Below, one piece after another: positions 29,942-39,063 of a DNA stretch of 54,682 bases. Source of the DNA: Gammaproteobacteria bacterium (GTDB lineage: Bacteria; Pseudomonadota; Gammaproteobacteria; Arenicellales; Arenicellaceae); the NCBI GenBank assembly GCA_022447525.1, contig JAKVBA010000001.1:41571-96252 (forward strand), written 5' to 3'. Each line of letters opens with the position of its first letter. Positions within the stretch are counted from its first letter, which is position 1. The notes beneath the pieces were generated by a model. The model was given only the letters and a program-made list of their open reading frames with translations. It ran no database searches and had not been told where the DNA came from. The position numbers and the translations under genes are program-made.

Positions 29942-30412
29942 ATGGAATTTATCTACCACTTTTCTGGTTCAGCCGAAGACGTATTTAATCAAGTCACTGA
30001 CCCACAACTCATCGTTAAACGCTGCATGGATTTAGGCAGCATCGAAGCGAGTTGTGACAGTAACGAAGAAGAATTTCCGCTACTGACCATTACTCGCAAA
30101 GAGCAAGCGGATCTCCCTGCTATGATGAAGAAAATATTGGGAGATCAACAGACCATTAAAACGCAACAAGCCTGGAGCGAGACAGACGAAAGCTATGACA
30201 ATATTTCAACCACGGTAATTGATGGCACGCCGATTAGTATCAAAGCTAATCAATCTCTTTATAATCTTGAGGAAGGAAGCGAAATCTCTGTCGAACTCTC
30301 TGTCAAAGCCAGTATACCGTTAGTCGGTAAAAAGGTTGAGGCAATGGTTGCCACCAAAATACGTGAAGAACTTTTTCGCGAATTTGAATACATAAATCAA
30401 CAGATAGGTTAA
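29942..30412 (+). CDS. DUF2505 family protein (SRPBCC/START-like fold)
   Basis: The 156-residue soluble protein starts MEFIYHFSGSAEDVFNQVTD, followed by two beta-rich halves (QTIKTQQAWSETDESYD, EGSEISVELSVKASIPLVGK) and the amphipathic C-terminal helix EAMVATKIREELFREFEYI. This is the DUF2505 pattern, a ligand-binding START-type fold of unknown function. It is divergent from the TetR gene, with 167 bases between them, so the TetR protein may control it. No signal peptide is seen. Confidence 0.75.
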   Translation: MEFIYHFSGSAEDVFNQVTDPQLIVKRCMDLGSIEASCDSNEEEFPLLTITRKEQADLPAMMKKILGDQQTIKTQQAWSETDESYDNISTTVIDGTPISIKANQSLYNLEEGSEISVELSVKASIPLVGKKVEAMVATKIREELFREFEYINQQIG

Positions 30413-30663
30413 CTTAGCCCTCAACTCTCGCGGCTTTTGCGTCACAAGCGACAGGAGGCTCTTCCGAAACACAGGACAGTTCTTAAATCAAAAAGCGGGC
30501 GAGATGACTTGATTGATTTGAATCACCCGTAAATTCAGCTGAACGGGAATTCATGTGCAAAGCTAATCTCTAATCCGGACATTAACTTTACAGAACTACA
30601 CTTTTGTTAATGTGGTCTGCTGGGCTTAAAAATTCAACTTAATGAATCACATTGCACGCAGAG

Positions 30664-31449
30664 CTATTGGAAATTTGGTTTACGTTTTTCTACGAAGGAA
30701 GTAACTCCTTCCTTGCCATCAGCGCCATCAGCACACTCCTCGATTGTGTCGCTTTCTAACTCAAGTTGTTGATGTAAACTGTTGAACCCTGATTGACGTA
30801 ACAGCTTTTTAATTGAGGCATTTGAGTTTAGAGATCCAATAACAAATTTTTGTGCTATTTTTTTTGCTCGTGGCATTAGCTCATTGTCAGCAACAACCTC
30901 ATTAAGCAAGCCCCACTCTTTTGCTTCTTGGGCACTCAAAACTCTATTGGTATACATAAGCTCCTGCGTTTTTCTTAGCCCTATCAATCTAGGAAGGTAA
31001 AAACTCGAGCTTCCATCTGGGCTGAGGCCAATGTTACTGTAGGCCATGGTAAATTTTGCTGATTCACTTGCGATGGCCATATCTCCCATTACCGAAATAC
31101 TGAAGCCAGCACCGGCAGCCGTGCCATTTACTGCACATATCAACGGCGCTCTCATGTTCGCAAAGAATTCAATGGCTTCATGTAATGCATCAGCTATTTC
31201 TCTCACTGTCTTTCCCGCCATCCCCTCTTGCGCGTCATGCATCGCCTTTACATCTCCGCCAGCACAGAAAAATCGTCCACTTGCGGTTAGAATAACAGCC
31301 TTAACCGTAGCGTTCTCTGCTAGCTGTTTAGCTACTTTAGCAAGCTCTTGTGCGAGTCCCAGGTTTAATCCATTAGCCGCTTCTGGGCGATCTAGCGTAA
31401 CCATTGCAATACGGTCACTGACTTCATACTTTAAAAATTCAAAGCTCAT
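30664..31449 (-). CDS. Enoyl-CoA hydratase/isomerase family protein (crotonase)
   Basis: The 261-residue crotonase-fold protein has the oxyanion-hole segments FFCAGGDVKAMH (about 61-72) and AVNGTAAGAGFSISV (about 108-122). At the second catalytic position GLSPDGSSSFYLPRLIG carries an aspartate, as in PaaG-type isomerases. The position holding the first catalytic glutamate of true hydratases is not a glutamate here (FTMAYSNIGLSPDG). An isomerase role is therefore more likely than hydratase. It may act in fatty or aromatic acid CoA breakdown. It is a single leftward gene downstream of the cyclase gene. Confidence 0.85.
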   Translation of the reverse strand: MSFEFLKYEVSDRIAMVTLDRPEAANGLNLGLAQELAKVAKQLAENATVKAVILTASGRFFCAGGDVKAMHDAQEGMAGKTVREIADALHEAIEFFANMRAPLICAVNGTAAGAGFSISVMGDMAIASESAKFTMAYSNIGLSPDGSSSFYLPRLIGLRKTQELMYTNRVLSAQEAKEWGLLNEVVADNELMPRAKKIAQKFVIGSLNSNASIKKLLRQSGFNSLHQQLELESDTIEECADGADGKEGVTSFVEKRKPNFQ

Positions 31450-31566: not shown

Positions 31567-33201
31567 CTAGATGTTTCTCCATTCACGAAATCTAGCAAGA
31601 TCGTATAACTTTTTACCCTCAGACAACAATTCGCTTGAGTAATCTTTGTGGGTTGCTTTACTTAAACTCTCATTGGACAAGGACGTATCTAGGGCCAGCA
31701 ACAACAAGCAGGTGTCGAATTTCATATTGAACTTTTTGGCGAACTCCAAACCTTTTATCCAGTGAGTGTGACTGGCATCCTCATTTTCCAGCATAGACTC
31801 ATACCATCCAGCTACCAATCGATAGCGAGGAATAGCAATATCGTATATATTTGCATGCTGTTTTAACAAGTAAATCGCACTGTTTAATCGGCGTTGAGTT
31901 TCTTTAAAATACGACTCCCTTCCCTCGACTTTTAGCTGATACCAGAGCCGAAGAGTCGCTTCACAATAATGAAAGCAACCAACAATGGATCGCCAATTAG
32001 TTGGGCGCCCCCAGATAGCTATCTCTTTCGCCGCCATAGTCAAATATTCAAAAGCTTCTATCGTTTCTTCGTTTCGAAGCGAAAGCAGGGCAAAAGAGCT
32101 ATTTGCCTCTAACACATTAACTGGGTCAATGGGATCACTCGATCCATCAATCAGCTTTTTTAATCTTTTATCCAGTGAGTTTGCCAGCGTAAACTCGCCC
32201 TGCACAATTGCAGACATCAACCACATGCAAAGCCCCCAAAGCTGTGTTTGTGTTACGCCGCGACGGAATCCTGAATCCAGTATCTTGCTGTAATCATTGC
32301 TTAGATCACTTGCCTGTTCCAGTTCACCAGATAGAAACCCAGCTATACTTTTTACCGACGTCGCCTCCTCCCAACGACGTCGATCACCGTGCGCTATTGC
32401 TGATTGTTGGCACTTTGACATTGCTTGAGTATGTCCTTGCCAATCTCCAAATTGCGCCAAACACATGCCTCCAGCGAGGTGGTACCATGCCCATGCTCCG
32501 TCATCATTGAGATTTTCTGCCACCTTTTTAGCGCGCCTTAGATAGGAACTCGAAAGTCTATAGGCGGGTATCCCAGCAAAAACGTTACCTATATTTGCGT
32601 AGCTCCTTGATAATGTAACCGTGTCATCTTGTGTCGCCTCAGATAGATTAGTGGAAGCCAACGCTGAATAAAATAGACCCTCCATTTTCTTGAGGTAAAA
32701 GTAGACCACAAACTGACGTTCCATGATCATTGCGGCTAAATGTACGTCTTTAACCCTTCTATCCGGCACTCTTTTTCGCAGTGATGGGAGATAGCGATTT
32801 CGTAACTGTAAAACAGCTTCTACTAATGTTTTAGTTATATATCCCATTTTTGATCGAGGCTGTCTAAACCCAAGCAAATCCAATGCTCTGTTAAATTCAC
32901 TTTCAGCTCTCTCGGGGAAACCTAAGGCTAGTTCCGCAGTGCCACCCATGGCCACCCATCTGGCATGTTTTGACTTAGATACGGTAATATTATGTTGCCC
33001 TATGATGGATTCAATTTTACTCAAACACTCAATAATTTCTCTATTAGCAAACTTCTTGAAGGCGTTTTGAATGGCTTTGCCGTAAAAGTGCAAGGCTTTA
33101 CGATAATCCTCGGCCTTATAGCAATGCAAGGCTAATTCCACGTTGTTTTGTGAGGCAATAGTCGAATTAGCTATCATCCACGATGCCACCTTTCGGTGCA
33201 T
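31567..33201 (-). pseudogene. C-terminal (TPR-like) half of a soluble-adenylyl-cyclase-like protein, separated by a frameshift
   Basis: From the first ATG this half encodes 544 residues of helical repeats (LALHCYKAEDYRKALHFYGK near the start, then TPR-like pairs), the usual tail of cyclase-ATPase-TPR proteins. In the same frame the open sequence extends up to a TAG at 33301-33303. Translation of 33202-33300 gives HVDYLFTHEATQKIAYDLLL followed by FRQRKKMHRKVA, the segment that normally joins the ATPase module to the repeats. The two halves are therefore one gene, with a single-base shift at about 33300. Whether this half is translated alone from 33201 is doubtful. An authentic mutation or a sequencing error are both possible. 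Confidence 0.85.
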
Positions 33202-33229
33202 TTTCTTTCGTTGTCGAAATAAAAGAAGG

Positions 33230-35761
33230 TCATAAGCGATTTTTTGAGTAGCCTCGTGAGTAAATAAATAATCGACATGTCTTATTTGGGCTCGAGTTTC
33301 CTACGCCGCTTAATCGATCAAGCTCACCATTTAATTCCTCTCTAGATTTATCTACCGGATAAATGTGGTGTAGCGTATCCATATTAAATTTTCGGCCAAC
33401 GACACTGGCTGTTTTGAGGGCAAGTTGCTGATCGAGATCAAGCCGGTCCATTTGGCTGTTCAAGGCACTTTCAATTGATATGGGCAGTTCGATCTGTTCA
33501 AGGTTACGAATTTGATCTGATAACCGACAATGACCTGCATGAACGGTCACTATTTTCCTAGCCAACAGATCACGAACTAATATTTCTGCATAATGTGGGT
33601 TACCCTCAGTTCGTTTATAAATTAGATTCAACAACCGTTCGGGTACCAACTCCGCACTCAACTCGTGTTGCACAACGTTATCATGATCTTTGCGCGTTAG
33701 AGGTCTTAACTTAATTTCATCGACCGAGCTCATGGTCGCTAGCCTTGTATAACTGTTTGGAGGCTTACCTACAAAATTTTGCAGAGCCATGATGAAAATT
33801 ACCTCAGCTACACTCCTTGCTATAGAATCCAATAATAGCCAAGACGCAGAATCCATCCAGTGAGCGTCGTCAATAATAATTACCAAAGTCCGACCATCTG
33901 CTATTTCTCTTAGAATATAAGCCATAAGGGTATGAATATTCTCCGCTCGAATCTCATTTTGCATTTGCAACAATTGATCGGACTCTTCTAAATCAAGACC
34001 AAAAATTTCATTCAAAAGCGGCAACATCCCAACTTTGACTCTGGAATTTCTCTCTATAAGCTTGTCTAAGAAATCTTTTTTTTGCTCAGAACTTGTCAGT
34101 TCATCGAAACCCACTGCTTCGTATACTAACTCTCGCCAAACGCCAAAAAATGAGGTTTGGGTAGTGCTTGCACTCGCTATTAATACTCTCGTATCAGCTT
34201 CCTCAGACCTCCGTCTTACGACCTCTGACAAAACCGCAGATTTGCCAATACCGGCCTCAGCAACTATTAAGACTCCTCTTCCAATACCTCTTTGGCTAGG
34301 TTGATCTATCAACTGCTCTATAATAGCGAGTTCTGTATTTCGGCCTACAAAGTATGTATTTTCGTTTTTTTGAACACTGATTACAGATAAGGGATTATAG
34401 GTTGGCAATGGATTAGATTTACCTTTAAGCTCGAGGAGCCCAGCACTCTTAAAATTAATTTTCTCAGAGCTCTGCTCGAAGGTAGCAGAATCACATAATA
34501 TACCCCCTTTGGCCTTGCTCATTAGACGAGCTGCCGTATTAACTCCATCCCCCATAAGAGTATATTCACAACGCCTTTTATCCCCGAGTGTGCCACAGTA
34601 AACAGGGCCGGATGCGACGCCTATTGATACCTGCACATCTATAGCTTCTAAGGCGGTTTTAACATTTAGAGCGGCTTTAACCGCTCGCTCAGCATCGTCT
34701 TCTGCCGACATCGGTGGCACTCCAAAACCAGCGATCAACGACACGCCTTTGTCATCACTACTAATTTTGTCCAAACTACCACGCTGGCCATAGCATACCT
34801 GTTGAATACACGTCACAATCCGTTGAGCGGCCTCAAGATCAATGTCCGGTTTAAAATCGGGCAGATTAATAAAGAGAACCGTGATATGTCTGAGTTCACT
34901 AATAAGTGCCACATCTACCTGCCCCGCTGAAATACGGTTTGCCACAGCCGCTGGCACAAAGCTCTTAATCATTGGCATATGATCCTCGGTGAGCCCAATA
35001 CTGTCCGTTGATGATTGGTATTGCCACTCTTTGATACTGCCAATGCTGTAGCAATCTTCATCCCTTTGATCAAACTCGCCGCAAAAATCACCCAATAAGC
35101 TCAGTGACTCTCTCGAGATGATAACATCACCAGGTAAAGCTACTTTACCGAGAGTCTCTAGGTTTATAATGGCGTCACTTACGACAGCATATTCCCATCG
35201 ATCTAAGACGCCTCCGAGAATCATACCCCTGATACTTCCATAGCTAATAGCAATCTTTAAGCTAAGACATAGATCCTTTTCATTTTTGATTTTTTGCGAA
35301 AGACGTTTTGCTACCTCTTGCATTTTTAGAGCACAGGTAACCGCGACTCTGACGGCGAAATCATTATCTTCAACTGGAAACAAAATAAGCACAGCGTCAC
35401 CAGCGAATTTAACAACATCACCACCATAAGATTCAGCGACCTCTATTAGCTTATCAAAGTATTCAGATATCAGAAGCGTTAAATGCTCAGCTCCAACCGC
35501 CTGCTCTGATCCGTACTTAGCTACCAAATCCTCGGTCAATGACGTAAAACCACTTATGTCTGCAAATAGTATCGCTGCGTTAAAATAATCTTCCTCGCAT
35601 TGGAGCTTTGTTTTGTTATCTGCAATCCTTGCTAGCAAACCATCGCTTATAAACTTAGATAGGGCATCTACGGCACTCAAGGAGTCGAGACCCCCATCAC
35701 CGCTTTCCTCATCTGCGACAGTCAAGGATGATGCCCGAGTTACCTGATCTAGTCGTTCCAT
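33230..35761 (-). CDS. Tandem class III nucleotide cyclase with P-loop ATPase (soluble adenylyl cyclase-like), frameshifted at its 3' end
   Basis: The 843-residue N-terminal part has cyclase homology domain 1 (about 62-225: FADISGFTSLTED with metal Asp68, then GGDVVKFAGDAV with Lys118 and Asp122). Cyclase domain 2 (about 290-455) has GVASGPVYCGTLGDKRRCEY then TLMGDGVNTAARL, with Thr401, Asn408 and Arg412 at the positions of the adenine and transition-state residues. A P-loop NTPase follows (FVGRN 471-475, Walker A AEAGIGKS 501-508, Walker B LVIIIDDAHW 626-635). The order C1-C2-NTPase-helical repeats equals that of animal ADCY10. The last roughly 20 residues before the stop are out of frame. 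It lies 73 bases below the B3 lactamase gene. Confidence 0.9.
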   Translation of the reverse strand: MERLDQVTRASSLTVADEESGDGGLDSLSAVDALSKFISDGLLARIADNKTKLQCEEDYFNAAILFADISGFTSLTEDLVAKYGSEQAVGAEHLTLLISEYFDKLIEVAESYGGDVVKFAGDAVLILFPVEDNDFAVRVAVTCALKMQEVAKRLSQKIKNEKDLCLSLKIAISYGSIRGMILGGVLDRWEYAVVSDAIINLETLGKVALPGDVIISRESLSLLGDFCGEFDQRDEDCYSIGSIKEWQYQSSTDSIGLTEDHMPMIKSFVPAAVANRISAGQVDVALISELRHITVLFINLPDFKPDIDLEAAQRIVTCIQQVCYGQRGSLDKISSDDKGVSLIAGFGVPPMSAEDDAERAVKAALNVKTALEAIDVQVSIGVASGPVYCGTLGDKRRCEYTLMGDGVNTAARLMSKAKGGILCDSATFEQSSEKINFKSAGLLELKGKSNPLPTYNPLSVISVQKNENTYFVGRNTELAIIEQLIDQPSQRGIGRGVLIVAEAGIGKSAVLSEVVRRRSEEADTRVLIASASTTQTSFFGVWRELVYEAVGFDELTSSEQKKDFLDKLIERNSRVKVGMLPLLNEIFGLDLEESDQLLQMQNEIRAENIHTLMAYILREIADGRTLVIIIDDAHWMDSASWLLLDSIARSVAEVIFIMALQNFVGKPPNSYTRLATMSSVDEIKLRPLTRKDHDNVVQHELSAELVPERLLNLIYKRTEGNPHYAEILVRDLLARKIVTVHAGHCRLSDQIRNLEQIELPISIESALNSQMDRLDLDQQLALKTASVVGRKFNMDTLHHIYPVDKSREELNGELDRLSGVGNSSPNKTCRLFIYSRGYSKNRL

Positions 35762-35834: not shown

Positions 35835-36737
35835 TTAATTAGGCTCTTCTTTGTTTTCTTTCTCCAGTCTTCTGGCCAACCTTTGGTTAAGATGATTAGC
35901 ATAGTTACCACAACCATCTTTGCCAATCAAACTCTGTTGCGACTCGATACGAGCTCGGAGCTTAGCTGCCGATGGGTGTGGTGCAATTAAAATATCGCAC
36001 TCTAAAGTCGAGATTTTTTCTATCGAAGTCCGATAGGCTGAAAGATAGTTTTTGAAGTCACTAAATCGATACACCTCGCTGCTGACCGGACTGAGACTAT
36101 CAGCATAAACAAATACCGCACATTTATTCAATTCACAAGAACGCCATTGCCAACTGAGGGCGCCCGGCGTGTGCCCAGGGGTGACTAATGGATTCAACTC
36201 AAGCATCCCCAATTTAACGTGCTGACCTTCCTCAATAATGCCATCAACCTCAACAGGTTCCATCACTTTTAACATGCCATATTGAGGGTCTTGTTGAGAT
36301 GGTGTACCGGAGCTAATCGCACCCAATGCACCTTGGGAAGTGAAAAGTCTCGCGCCTGTCGACGTCTTAATATAGTCTAGCCCACCAACGTGATCATGGT
36401 GCTCATGACTGTGAAGCAAAACTTTAATGTCTAAGGGATCAAAACCAAGTTTCTTAATATTTTCTATCACAACCCTAGCTCCTAGTCTGGTACCAGAATC
36501 TATCAAAACATGTCCTGCTGAACTGGTTATCAGTATCGACGAAATTCCGCAGGTTCCGACATAATAGGTATTCCCGAATAGCTTAAAAGGTGGGCCAGGC
36601 TTATCCCATAAATCCCAGTCCTCACAGGTCTGCGCCCAGTTTTCAGCTGAAAAATCGCGGTCGCGAAGATTGTCTTCCGTCGCAACTGCAAGAGAGAAGC
36701 TAAGGTAGCAAAAAAAAATAAAACTGATTGGCTTCAT
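35835..36737 (-). CDS. Subclass B3 metallo-beta-lactamase
   Basis: The 300-residue exported protein has a signal peptide (about 1-20) and the metallo-beta-lactamase fold. All zinc ligands of subclass B3 are present: HSHEHHDH gives His111, His113, Asp115 and His116, with His189 in TPGHTPG and His254 in APHPS. The B3 features WDKPGPPFKLFGNTYYVG near the N terminus and ADSLSPVSSEVYRF are also present. It should hydrolyse beta-lactams, possibly carbapenems, in the periplasm, though some B3-like proteins have other substrates. A terminator-like hairpin lies just upstream of its start, and the cyclase gene follows in the same direction. Confidence 0.9.
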   Translation of the reverse strand: MKPISFIFFCYLSFSLAVATEDNLRDRDFSAENWAQTCEDWDLWDKPGPPFKLFGNTYYVGTCGISSILITSSAGHVLIDSGTRLGARVVIENIKKLGFDPLDIKVLLHSHEHHDHVGGLDYIKTSTGARLFTSQGALGAISSGTPSQQDPQYGMLKVMEPVEVDGIIEEGQHVKLGMLELNPLVTPGHTPGALSWQWRSCELNKCAVFVYADSLSPVSSEVYRFSDFKNYLSAYRTSIEKISTLECDILIAPHPSAAKLRARIESQQSLIGKDGCGNYANHLNQRLARRLEKENKEEPN

Positions 36738-38238: not shown

Positions 38239-39063
38239 ATGAAAAACGCGCTGTCATTATCTCTCATTATCGCTTTGGTAGCCAGTTCATCGCTAGCTGA
38301 GCAAAAAATCCCCAGCAAGCAAACGAAAATCACGTCAAATGCATTACGCGTAATAATAAATGAAGCGAATGTTCTTGGTGCAATCTTAATTTACGATTTA
38401 TCACAAGACATTTACTATTCTAACAACTTTGAATGGTCGGCTATGGGGCAATTGCCAGCGTCTACATTTAAAATACCAAATACCATCATTGGTCTTGAAA
38501 CTGGCGTTATCAAAGACGAAACGACTGTATTTGAATGGGACGGTACATCCAAGAGATTTAAGAGTTGGGAGCAAGATATGGTGCTGCAAGATGCTTTCCA
38601 TAATTCTTGTGTGCCTTGCTATCGTCAAGTCGCAAGACAAATTGGCACAAAACAAATGAACGCGCATTTACGTGAGTTAGGTTTTGGCAAGATGGATGTT
38701 AGCGACAGCAGTTTAGATATGTTTTGGTTAATGGGCGAATCTACTATCAGCCCGTTTGAACAACTCCACTTTTTGGTGAATTTTTACAACAAGGCACTTC
38801 CCATCAGTGATAGAACGCATGCTATTGTAAAAAACATGATGGTAATGGAACAAACAGCAACACATCAAATTAGCGGTAAAACTGGCTGGTCTGTCAACGG
38901 CGATATAAATAACGGGTGGTTTGTTGGCTATTTAGTCAAAGACGGAAACGCCTATTTTTTTGCGAGCAACATTGAACCCTCTGCCAGCTTCGACATACGT
39001 AATTTTTCTTTTATACGAACGCAAATAACCTACGATGCACTGCGGGCACTCGACATGTTATGA
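38239..39063 (+). CDS. Class D (OXA-type) beta-lactamase
   Basis: The 274-residue exported protein has a signal peptide (1-20, ending SSLA). Class D motifs are PASTFKIPN with Ser75 and Lys78, HNSCVPCYRQVARQIG with the SxV motif at 123-125, FWLMG with Trp163, and SGKTGW with KTG at 214-216. The usual YGN triad is FGK (149-151), a known type of variation in more distant OXA enzymes. SCVPCY recalls the LCR-1-like branch. It probably hydrolyses penicillins. The carboxylated lysine Lys78 is kept, so activity is plausible. It is followed 51 bases later by the broken class C-like gene. Confidence 0.92.
   Translation: MKNALSLSLIIALVASSSLAEQKIPSKQTKITSNALRVIINEANVLGAILIYDLSQDIYYSNNFEWSAMGQLPASTFKIPNTIIGLETGVIKDETTVFEWDGTSKRFKSWEQDMVLQDAFHNSCVPCYRQVARQIGTKQMNAHLRELGFGKMDVSDSSLDMFWLMGESTISPFEQLHFLVNFYNKALPISDRTHAIVKNMMVMEQTATHQISGKTGWSVNGDINNGWFVGYLVKDGNAYFFASNIEPSASFDIRNFSFIRTQITYDALRALDML

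Follow-up and report, generated by a model that had tools for sequence, protein, structure and literature searches.

A gammaproteobacterial tandem cyclase gene of the ADCY10-like family with a predicted C1/C2 site and glutamate at the position of the bicarbonate-binding arginine

The closest described relatives of the gene studied here are human soluble adenylyl cyclase (sAC, ADCY10) and the tandem cyclases of bacteria. The gene lies on the minus strand at positions 31567-35761 of a 54,682-nucleotide stretch of gammaproteobacterial DNA (contig JAKVBA010000001.1), the whole of which is called the window below. In 2004, Kobayashi, Buck and Levin reportedly described bacterial proteins with two cyclase domains, with similarity extending through the C-terminus and one member stimulated by bicarbonate. 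ADCY10-type bacterial tandem cyclases are already known, and the window gene is not new in kind. The novelty implied by a preliminary description of the locus, made from the sequence alone, is not supported: the tandem family occurs in many phyla, and the activation of a Chloroflexus homologue by bicarbonate is credited to a paper of 2004 (PMC11006738).

In human sAC, bicarbonate is bound by Lys95 and Arg176, and Arg176 releases Asp99 (PMC12867704, PMC12250328). According to a 2026 paper, this lysine and arginine pair is largely mammalian, one or both of the bicarbonate residues are absent from most animal sACs outside the mammals, and the sea urchin and salmon enzymes respond to pH (PMC12867704); the word 'bacteria' was not found in its main text. 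For full-length sAC (sACfl), a P-loop/STAND region and a C-terminal extension have been reported and a STAND-type gate is predicted. The short form, sACt, is about 3.5-fold more active, and the nucleotides tested on sAC did not distinguish the short from the full-length form (PMC12802110).

Based on profiles and structure models, the product of the window gene is very probably a cytoplasmic adenylyl cyclase of class III that belongs to the bacterial tandem (ADCY10-like) family, with a predicted C1/C2 site and probable STAND-like gating. The preliminary description was confirmed in what it observed and partly supported in how it interpreted it.

Domain layout and kinship with ADCY10

The locus contains two open frames that meet at a frame break. 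Its features are given below, where G008 is a genome of the same genus that holds the single close relative found.

33230..35761, minus strand: first open frame, 843 amino acids (aa), C1-C2-nucleoside triphosphatase (NTPase); its final codons, past the break, are out of frame relative to the G008 relative
31567..33300, minus strand: second open stretch, C-terminal helical domain; 577 codons, 544 aa from the first ATG (31567-33201)
35105..35587, minus strand: C1 cyclase domain, residues 59-219; hidden Markov model (HMM) score 166 bits, 155 bits with a model built without the window; metal aspartates D68 and D122, with K118 (human K95), K169 (K144) and E202 (human R176)
34412..34897, minus strand: C2 cyclase domain, residues 289-450; HMM 213 bits, 206 bits with a model built without the window; K332 (K334), T401 (T405), N408 (N412) and R412 (R416)
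33812..34351, minus strand: P-loop NTPase domain, AAA_16/STAND-like, residues 471-650; PF13191 64 bits against a cut-off of 32.6
33230..33303, minus strand: frame break; stop at 33301-33303 in the second frame, and homology to the unbroken G008 piece switches frame here

The preliminary description had read two class III cyclase domains in tandem, a P-loop NTPase and helical repeats from this region, and all of these were recovered. Pfam PF00211 matches two stretches of the 843-aa frame independently of our custom HMMs, AAA_16 is matched as well, and the second open reading frame (ORF) is all-helical in its model. The domain order of ADCY10, also claimed, holds as colinearity of C1 and C2, the comparison being one of the catalytic core: phmmer aligned residues 58-219 and 266-455 to ADCY10. 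The search against ADCY10 that had been proposed gave it as the best solved-structure match (E 5e-38). The best Protein Data Bank (PDB) sequence matches were four distinct ADCY10 constructs with E values from 5e-38 to 8e-38, both domains colinear, and the next molecule came at 2.5e-15.

Two sets of profiles were used. The first, from which the C1 and C2 coordinates and the genome searches come, had the window, G008 and ADCY10 among its rows; the second, which gave 155 and 206 bits for the window domains, was built without these three. The ADCY10 C1 domain scored 130 bits with the bacterial C1 profile, 56 with that of single-domain cyclases and 15 with C2, and its C2 domain scored 121 bits with bacterial C2, 55 with the singles and 16 with C1. 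For the window, the scores were 155, 70 and 11 bits for C1 (bacterial C1, singles and C2, respectively) and 206 and 80 bits for C2 (bacterial C2 and singles).

A similar picture was obtained with predicted structures, whose alignments drew on 60 of 84 rows (C1-C2) and 40 of 47 rows. For residues 24-468, the AlphaFold model made from 60 aligned rows had a predicted local distance difference test (pLDDT) score of 93.5 and a predicted template modelling (TM) score of 0.91. When this model was searched with Foldseek, the top 24 matches were all human sAC (TM 0.80-0.84 by query length). VIA-align gave Z 40.0-42.7 over 410-427 residues for human sAC, with transmembrane cyclases next at Z 30.2-35.5. 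The preliminary description held that a C1/C2 active site could form and asked whether the two domains might be unable to dimerise. The predicted pseudo-heterodimer models well and superposes as a C1/C2 pair on human sAC (5d0r; Z 42.7, root-mean-square deviation 2.7 over 425 residues). These results do not make the window protein unusually close to ADCY10, an idea that we rejected because it ranks 30th of 90 bacterial rows by identity.

A tree of 112 rows was obtained by a quick search; it included 35 of the 79 in-frame tandem loci together with the window, G008 and L120b. The 38 bacterial C1 domains and ADCY10 C1 fell on one side of a branch (SH-like approximate likelihood ratio test, SH-aLRT, 99), the 38 bacterial C2 domains grouped with ADCY10 C2 (SH-aLRT 96), and 34 single-domain cyclases were separate; the C2 domain of ADCY10 stood out as a long branch of unusual composition. 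A recent duplication of the cyclase domain within the lineage, starting from an ordinary single-cyclase AAA-TPR protein, would be an alternative origin of the tandem, as such proteins dominate the window's order and match the window from C2 through the NTPase. However, C1 and C2 lie in two separate clades, each common to other phyla and ADCY10, and the window C1 domain prefers the bacterial C1 profile to the other two by the margin given above. We give this origin almost no credence.

We consider membership of the window protein in the ADCY10-type tandem family to be well supported by sequence and models, its activity being a prediction. Some observations weigh against the reading as a whole. 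Although the best tree puts each domain with the matching ADCY10 domain and the tandem proteins, as the phylogeny proposed in the preliminary description was to examine, an approximately unbiased (AU) test did not reject the alternative in which both ADCY10 domains are held with single-domain cyclases (p 0.29), and for this reason profiles and structure carry more of the weight of the family assignment than the tree does. The gene is broken as sequenced, so that a full-length product may not exist. Lastly, there is the reported Chloroflexus relative activated by bicarbonate (PMC11006738), though four loci named Chloroflexaceae lack the arginine.

The residues expected of a working site are present. 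D68, D122, N408 and R412, named in the preliminary description, fall in columns that are invariant among the window, human ADCY10 and G008. We surveyed the same positions in 90 bacterial tandem rows. This set includes the window, leaves out the frame-broken L110 and was not dereplicated: L121 and L061 probably come from one contig, and the pairs L048/L050 and L072/L074 seem to be near copies. In human numbering, D47 and D99 were kept in 90 rows each, N412 and R416 in 89 each and T405 in 86, and the K334 equivalent was Lys in 78 rows and Arg in 8. The window cyclase carries the equivalents of all of D47, D99, K334, T405, N412 and R416. In the 112-row domain alignment, C1 had both aspartates in 38 of 38 rows. 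No C2 row of 38 had Asp in the D47 column, none of the 37 of 38 rows printed had it in the D99 column, and Asn and Arg were kept in all 38. Because C1 keeps the aspartates and C2 keeps the Asn and Arg, the two halves are complementary. C1 would supply the two metal aspartates and C2 the base-selecting Lys and Thr with the transition-state Asn and Arg, and the fused pair is predicted to form one catalytic and one degenerate site. From the roles that these residues are given in human sAC (PMC12867704, PMC12250328), we infer specificity for ATP.

The frame break and the C-terminal half

Owing to the stop at 33301-33303, the second ORF has an open frame from 33300 onward only, and the first frame continues to 33230. 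In G008 the window protein is matched on two contigs, C52 (query residues 28-644) and C65 (residues 649-808 and onward), which we infer to be one gene. On C65 the frame stays open through the position of the break. The window and G008 are 53% identical over 622 codons of C52. On C65 the identity is 44% for the 177 codons leading up to and slightly beyond the break, and 47% for the 568 aligned codons downstream of it, among which no further stop occurs. Non-synonymous differences amount to 0.36 per site and synonymous differences to 0.81, and because the synonymous sites are saturated no dN/dS ratio is given.

These data could be taken to describe a decaying pseudogene with a genuine displacement, whose protein has ceased to be produced and whose E202 reflects drift. 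The break itself fits this idea, and so does the presence of the gene in 2 of 18 same-genus genomes, which makes it dispensable, and the occurrence of Glu at the E202 position in just one other row of the 90, the divergent L127. Set against it are the uninterrupted codons after the break, with an identity close to that before it, the lower figure for non-synonymous than for (saturated) synonymous differences, and the kept catalytic residues. We regard a pseudogene as unlikely, although worth bearing in mind. The displacement looks recent or artefactual. Because the stretch after the break is still conserved, we hold an error of sequencing or assembly, or a mutation of very recent date, to be more likely than an old pseudogene.

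Taken at face value, the break would yield a product of 843 aa that comprises C1, C2 and the greater part of the NTPase and lacks the helical domain. Such a protein might be a short, constitutively active form that has lost its helical sensor, somewhat like sACt. C1, C2 and the Walker motifs do all lie within the 843-aa frame, and mammalian sACt, which is without the C-terminus, is about 3.5-fold more active than the full-length enzyme (PMC12802110). However, there is one sequenced copy of the window gene, and the frames of L080, L085, L110 and L118 end or break early near or within the cyclase domains and not at the window's point. A short active form is thus quite improbable. As to these other tandem loci, L085 is broken into 575 and 712 aa, in L110 C1 is in one frame and C2 in another, and L080 (499 aa) and L118 (444 aa) have frames that end early.

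The reading that we prefer is a tandem cyclase with probable STAND-like gating, and for this the NTPase and the helical half are of interest. The NTPase contains AEAGIGKS as Walker A and IIIDDAHWMD as Walker B, with a GNPHY motif downstream. The nSTAND_NTPase5 model scored 20.1 on this domain, under its cut-off of 34. For the second ORF, Pfam gave sub-threshold TPR and nothing else. The AlphaFold model of the C-terminal piece is all-helical (pLDDT 90.1) and matches TPR superhelices weakly, among them MalT domain III (1hz4; E 3.5e-4, TM 0.46 by query). The C-terminal piece of the window matches 64 of 85 tandem ORFs, and at least 480 of its 576 residues are matched by 46 ORFs, two of which are C-terminal pieces only. 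Eleven single-cyclase ORFs match it at 36 bits or less, eight only near the start and three in scattered stretches. The junction QKIAYDLL...QRKKMH, put forward earlier as a mark of sAC, loses that role, as these 11 single-cyclase AAA-TPR proteins, too, are matched by the start of the second ORF, if weakly.

The P-loop NTPase and the helical C-terminus are both present at the window locus; in relatives they form one chain, which is split here by the frame break. Together they would make up a STAND-like sensor, probably gating the cyclase on a ligand or partner. A STAND-type gate in the window cyclase is plausible, and such a gate is also the prediction for sACfl (PMC12802110).

The position of the bicarbonate-binding arginine

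The window cyclase has K118 at the Lys95 position and E202 at the Arg176 position. The glutamate had been placed there by hand in the preliminary description, and three separate alignments agree on it. The special weight that it was given is not supported, the arginine being missing from 89 of the 90 bacterial rows. At this position we found Gly in 56 rows, Ala in 13, Ser in 12, Thr in 3, Glu in 2, and Ile, Val, Gln and Arg in 1 each; at the Lys95 position, Lys was found in 84. The sole row with the mammalian K/R pair is L071 (frame from 1567, plus strand), from a Myxococcales metagenome-assembled genome (MAG). The four Chloroflexaceae loci all have Ala. G008 has Gly followed by Arg, so the sister gene is without the Glu. 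We also considered whether Arg176 is a retained catalytic arginine of a former homodimer. This was rejected: Arg176 lies one column before the C2 catalytic Arg, and it is therefore not simply the ancestral catalytic residue.

With E202, the mammalian switch between Arg176 and Asp99 could not operate as described, and since E202 replaces Arg176, regulation is probably not by that switch. Lack of Arg176 need not mean insensitivity to bicarbonate, given that the Chloroflexaceae loci are without the arginine and that a Chloroflexus homologue is nevertheless reported to be activated. Either the bicarbonate-activated bacterial homologue uses another route, or Arg176 sensing arose within animals. Given this distribution of residues, the Arg176 switch of mammals may well not be an ancestral trait. 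More tentatively, and with some doubt on our part, Arg176 control could be a late animal acquisition, and in the window cyclase a pairing of the Glu with K118 could shut the degenerate site. This would give bicarbonate insensitivity, with control perhaps by pH or by the STAND-like C-terminus only.

This residue survey agrees with the 2026 report on animal sACs and extends it to bacteria (PMC12867704). It is harder to reconcile with the activation by bicarbonate reported for the Chloroflexus homologue (PMC11006738). No bacterial survey of these bicarbonate residues was recognised by title or abstract opening in the open-licence literature.

Distribution, surroundings and comparison with known systems

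A collection of genomes (84,980 species by its description) was scanned with patterns made from tandem rows. The scan gave at least 585 stretches and 511 confirmed relatives, of which the best 80 were kept. C1 and C2 are both present in 80 of these 80 loci and lie in one frame in 79; uncut tandem frames are mostly about 1260-1520 aa. By phylum, 41 are from Chloroflexota, 18 from Pseudomonadota, 9 from Planctomycetota and 4 from Cyanobacteriota, with one each from Acidobacteriota, Myxococcota, Verrucomicrobiota, Altimarinota and Spirochaetota and three without a phylum. These counts rest on record titles, and some MAG labels (Klebsiella pneumoniae, Bordetella parapertussis) are untrustworthy. 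We rejected the idea that the tandem architecture is rare across bacteria, all 80 kept loci being tandem; as the patterns were tandem-derived and the loci are the best 80 of at least 585 stretches, these figures are no measure of prevalence. A divergent tandem cyclase (L120:1297-2673, minus strand) lies about 4 kb from another one on the opposite strand; in the quick tree it joins both the C1 and the C2 clade first and branches outside ADCY10, with unstarred supports of 94 and 90.

The converse idea, that the tandem type is common in the window's own lineage, was also rejected. A C1 model built from 39 of 84 rows was used at E <= 1e-25. In the order it matched 5 of 109 genomes, two of them tandem (G000 and G008) and the others single-region, and in a sample of the class it matched 11 of 369, seven of them tandem and four of those seven divergent. 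The tandem type is rare in the window's own order, and the cyclase gene is therefore accessory. The statement that most bacterial cyclase-ATPase-TPR proteins have a single cyclase domain fits the window's order, where single-cyclase proteins dominate; tandem proteins do occur in many bacterial phyla.

In the source genome (3.62 Mb in 222 contigs, completeness 96.5%) there are three other class III cyclase matches, five matches to cyclic nucleotide monophosphate (cNMP)-binding domains, four of them over the cut-off, and no match to a class I cyclase. Signalling by cyclic AMP (cAMP) is therefore plausible, and the window cyclase is not the sole cyclase. Its cAMP would act via cNMP-binding proteins encoded elsewhere in the genome.

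Synteny with the same-genus genome G002 runs from the aconitase gene to a DUF2505 gene (58-91% identity) and ends at about 30412-30664. Of the window ORFs beyond 30.4 kb, 12 were compared with the 14.6 kb of G002 that follow, and none had a match there. The cyclase gene lies beyond this breakpoint, as do two beta-lactamase genes of different type within 4 kb of each other:

35835-36737, minus strand: subclass B3 metallo-beta-lactamase gene; NF033105 268.8 against a cut-off of 240
38239-39063, plus strand: class D (OXA-type) beta-lactamase gene; NF012161 253.1, just over the cut-off of 250

The B3 gene is directly upstream of the cyclase on the same strand, with a 73 bp gap; its nearest family model is SAM, where it scores below that model's own cut-off. 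A scan for promoters and terminators gave nothing above chance (8 versus 12.3 and 3 versus 4.5).

The interest of these data lies in the question of how Arg176 evolved and not in the window gene, which is an ordinary new member of its family. The single-cyclase AAA-TPR proteins of the same order have a C2-type cyclase followed by the same NTPase, but are without C1. Among the bacterial tandem sAC-like cyclases other than that of G008, identity to the window over C1-C2 is 25-42%, and E202 sets the window apart. In the sea urchin and salmon sACs one of the two bicarbonate residues is replaced, as in the window; the sea urchin enzyme likewise keeps K95, but has Asn at the Arg176 position where the window has Glu (PMC12867704). 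ADCY10 itself shares with the window protein the tandem C1-C2 arrangement, the fold over 425 residues, the catalytic residues in matching domains and the K95 equivalent. It differs in sequence, with 32% identity over the aligned columns of the catalytic core to which this comparison applies, and in having Arg176 where the window cyclase has Glu.

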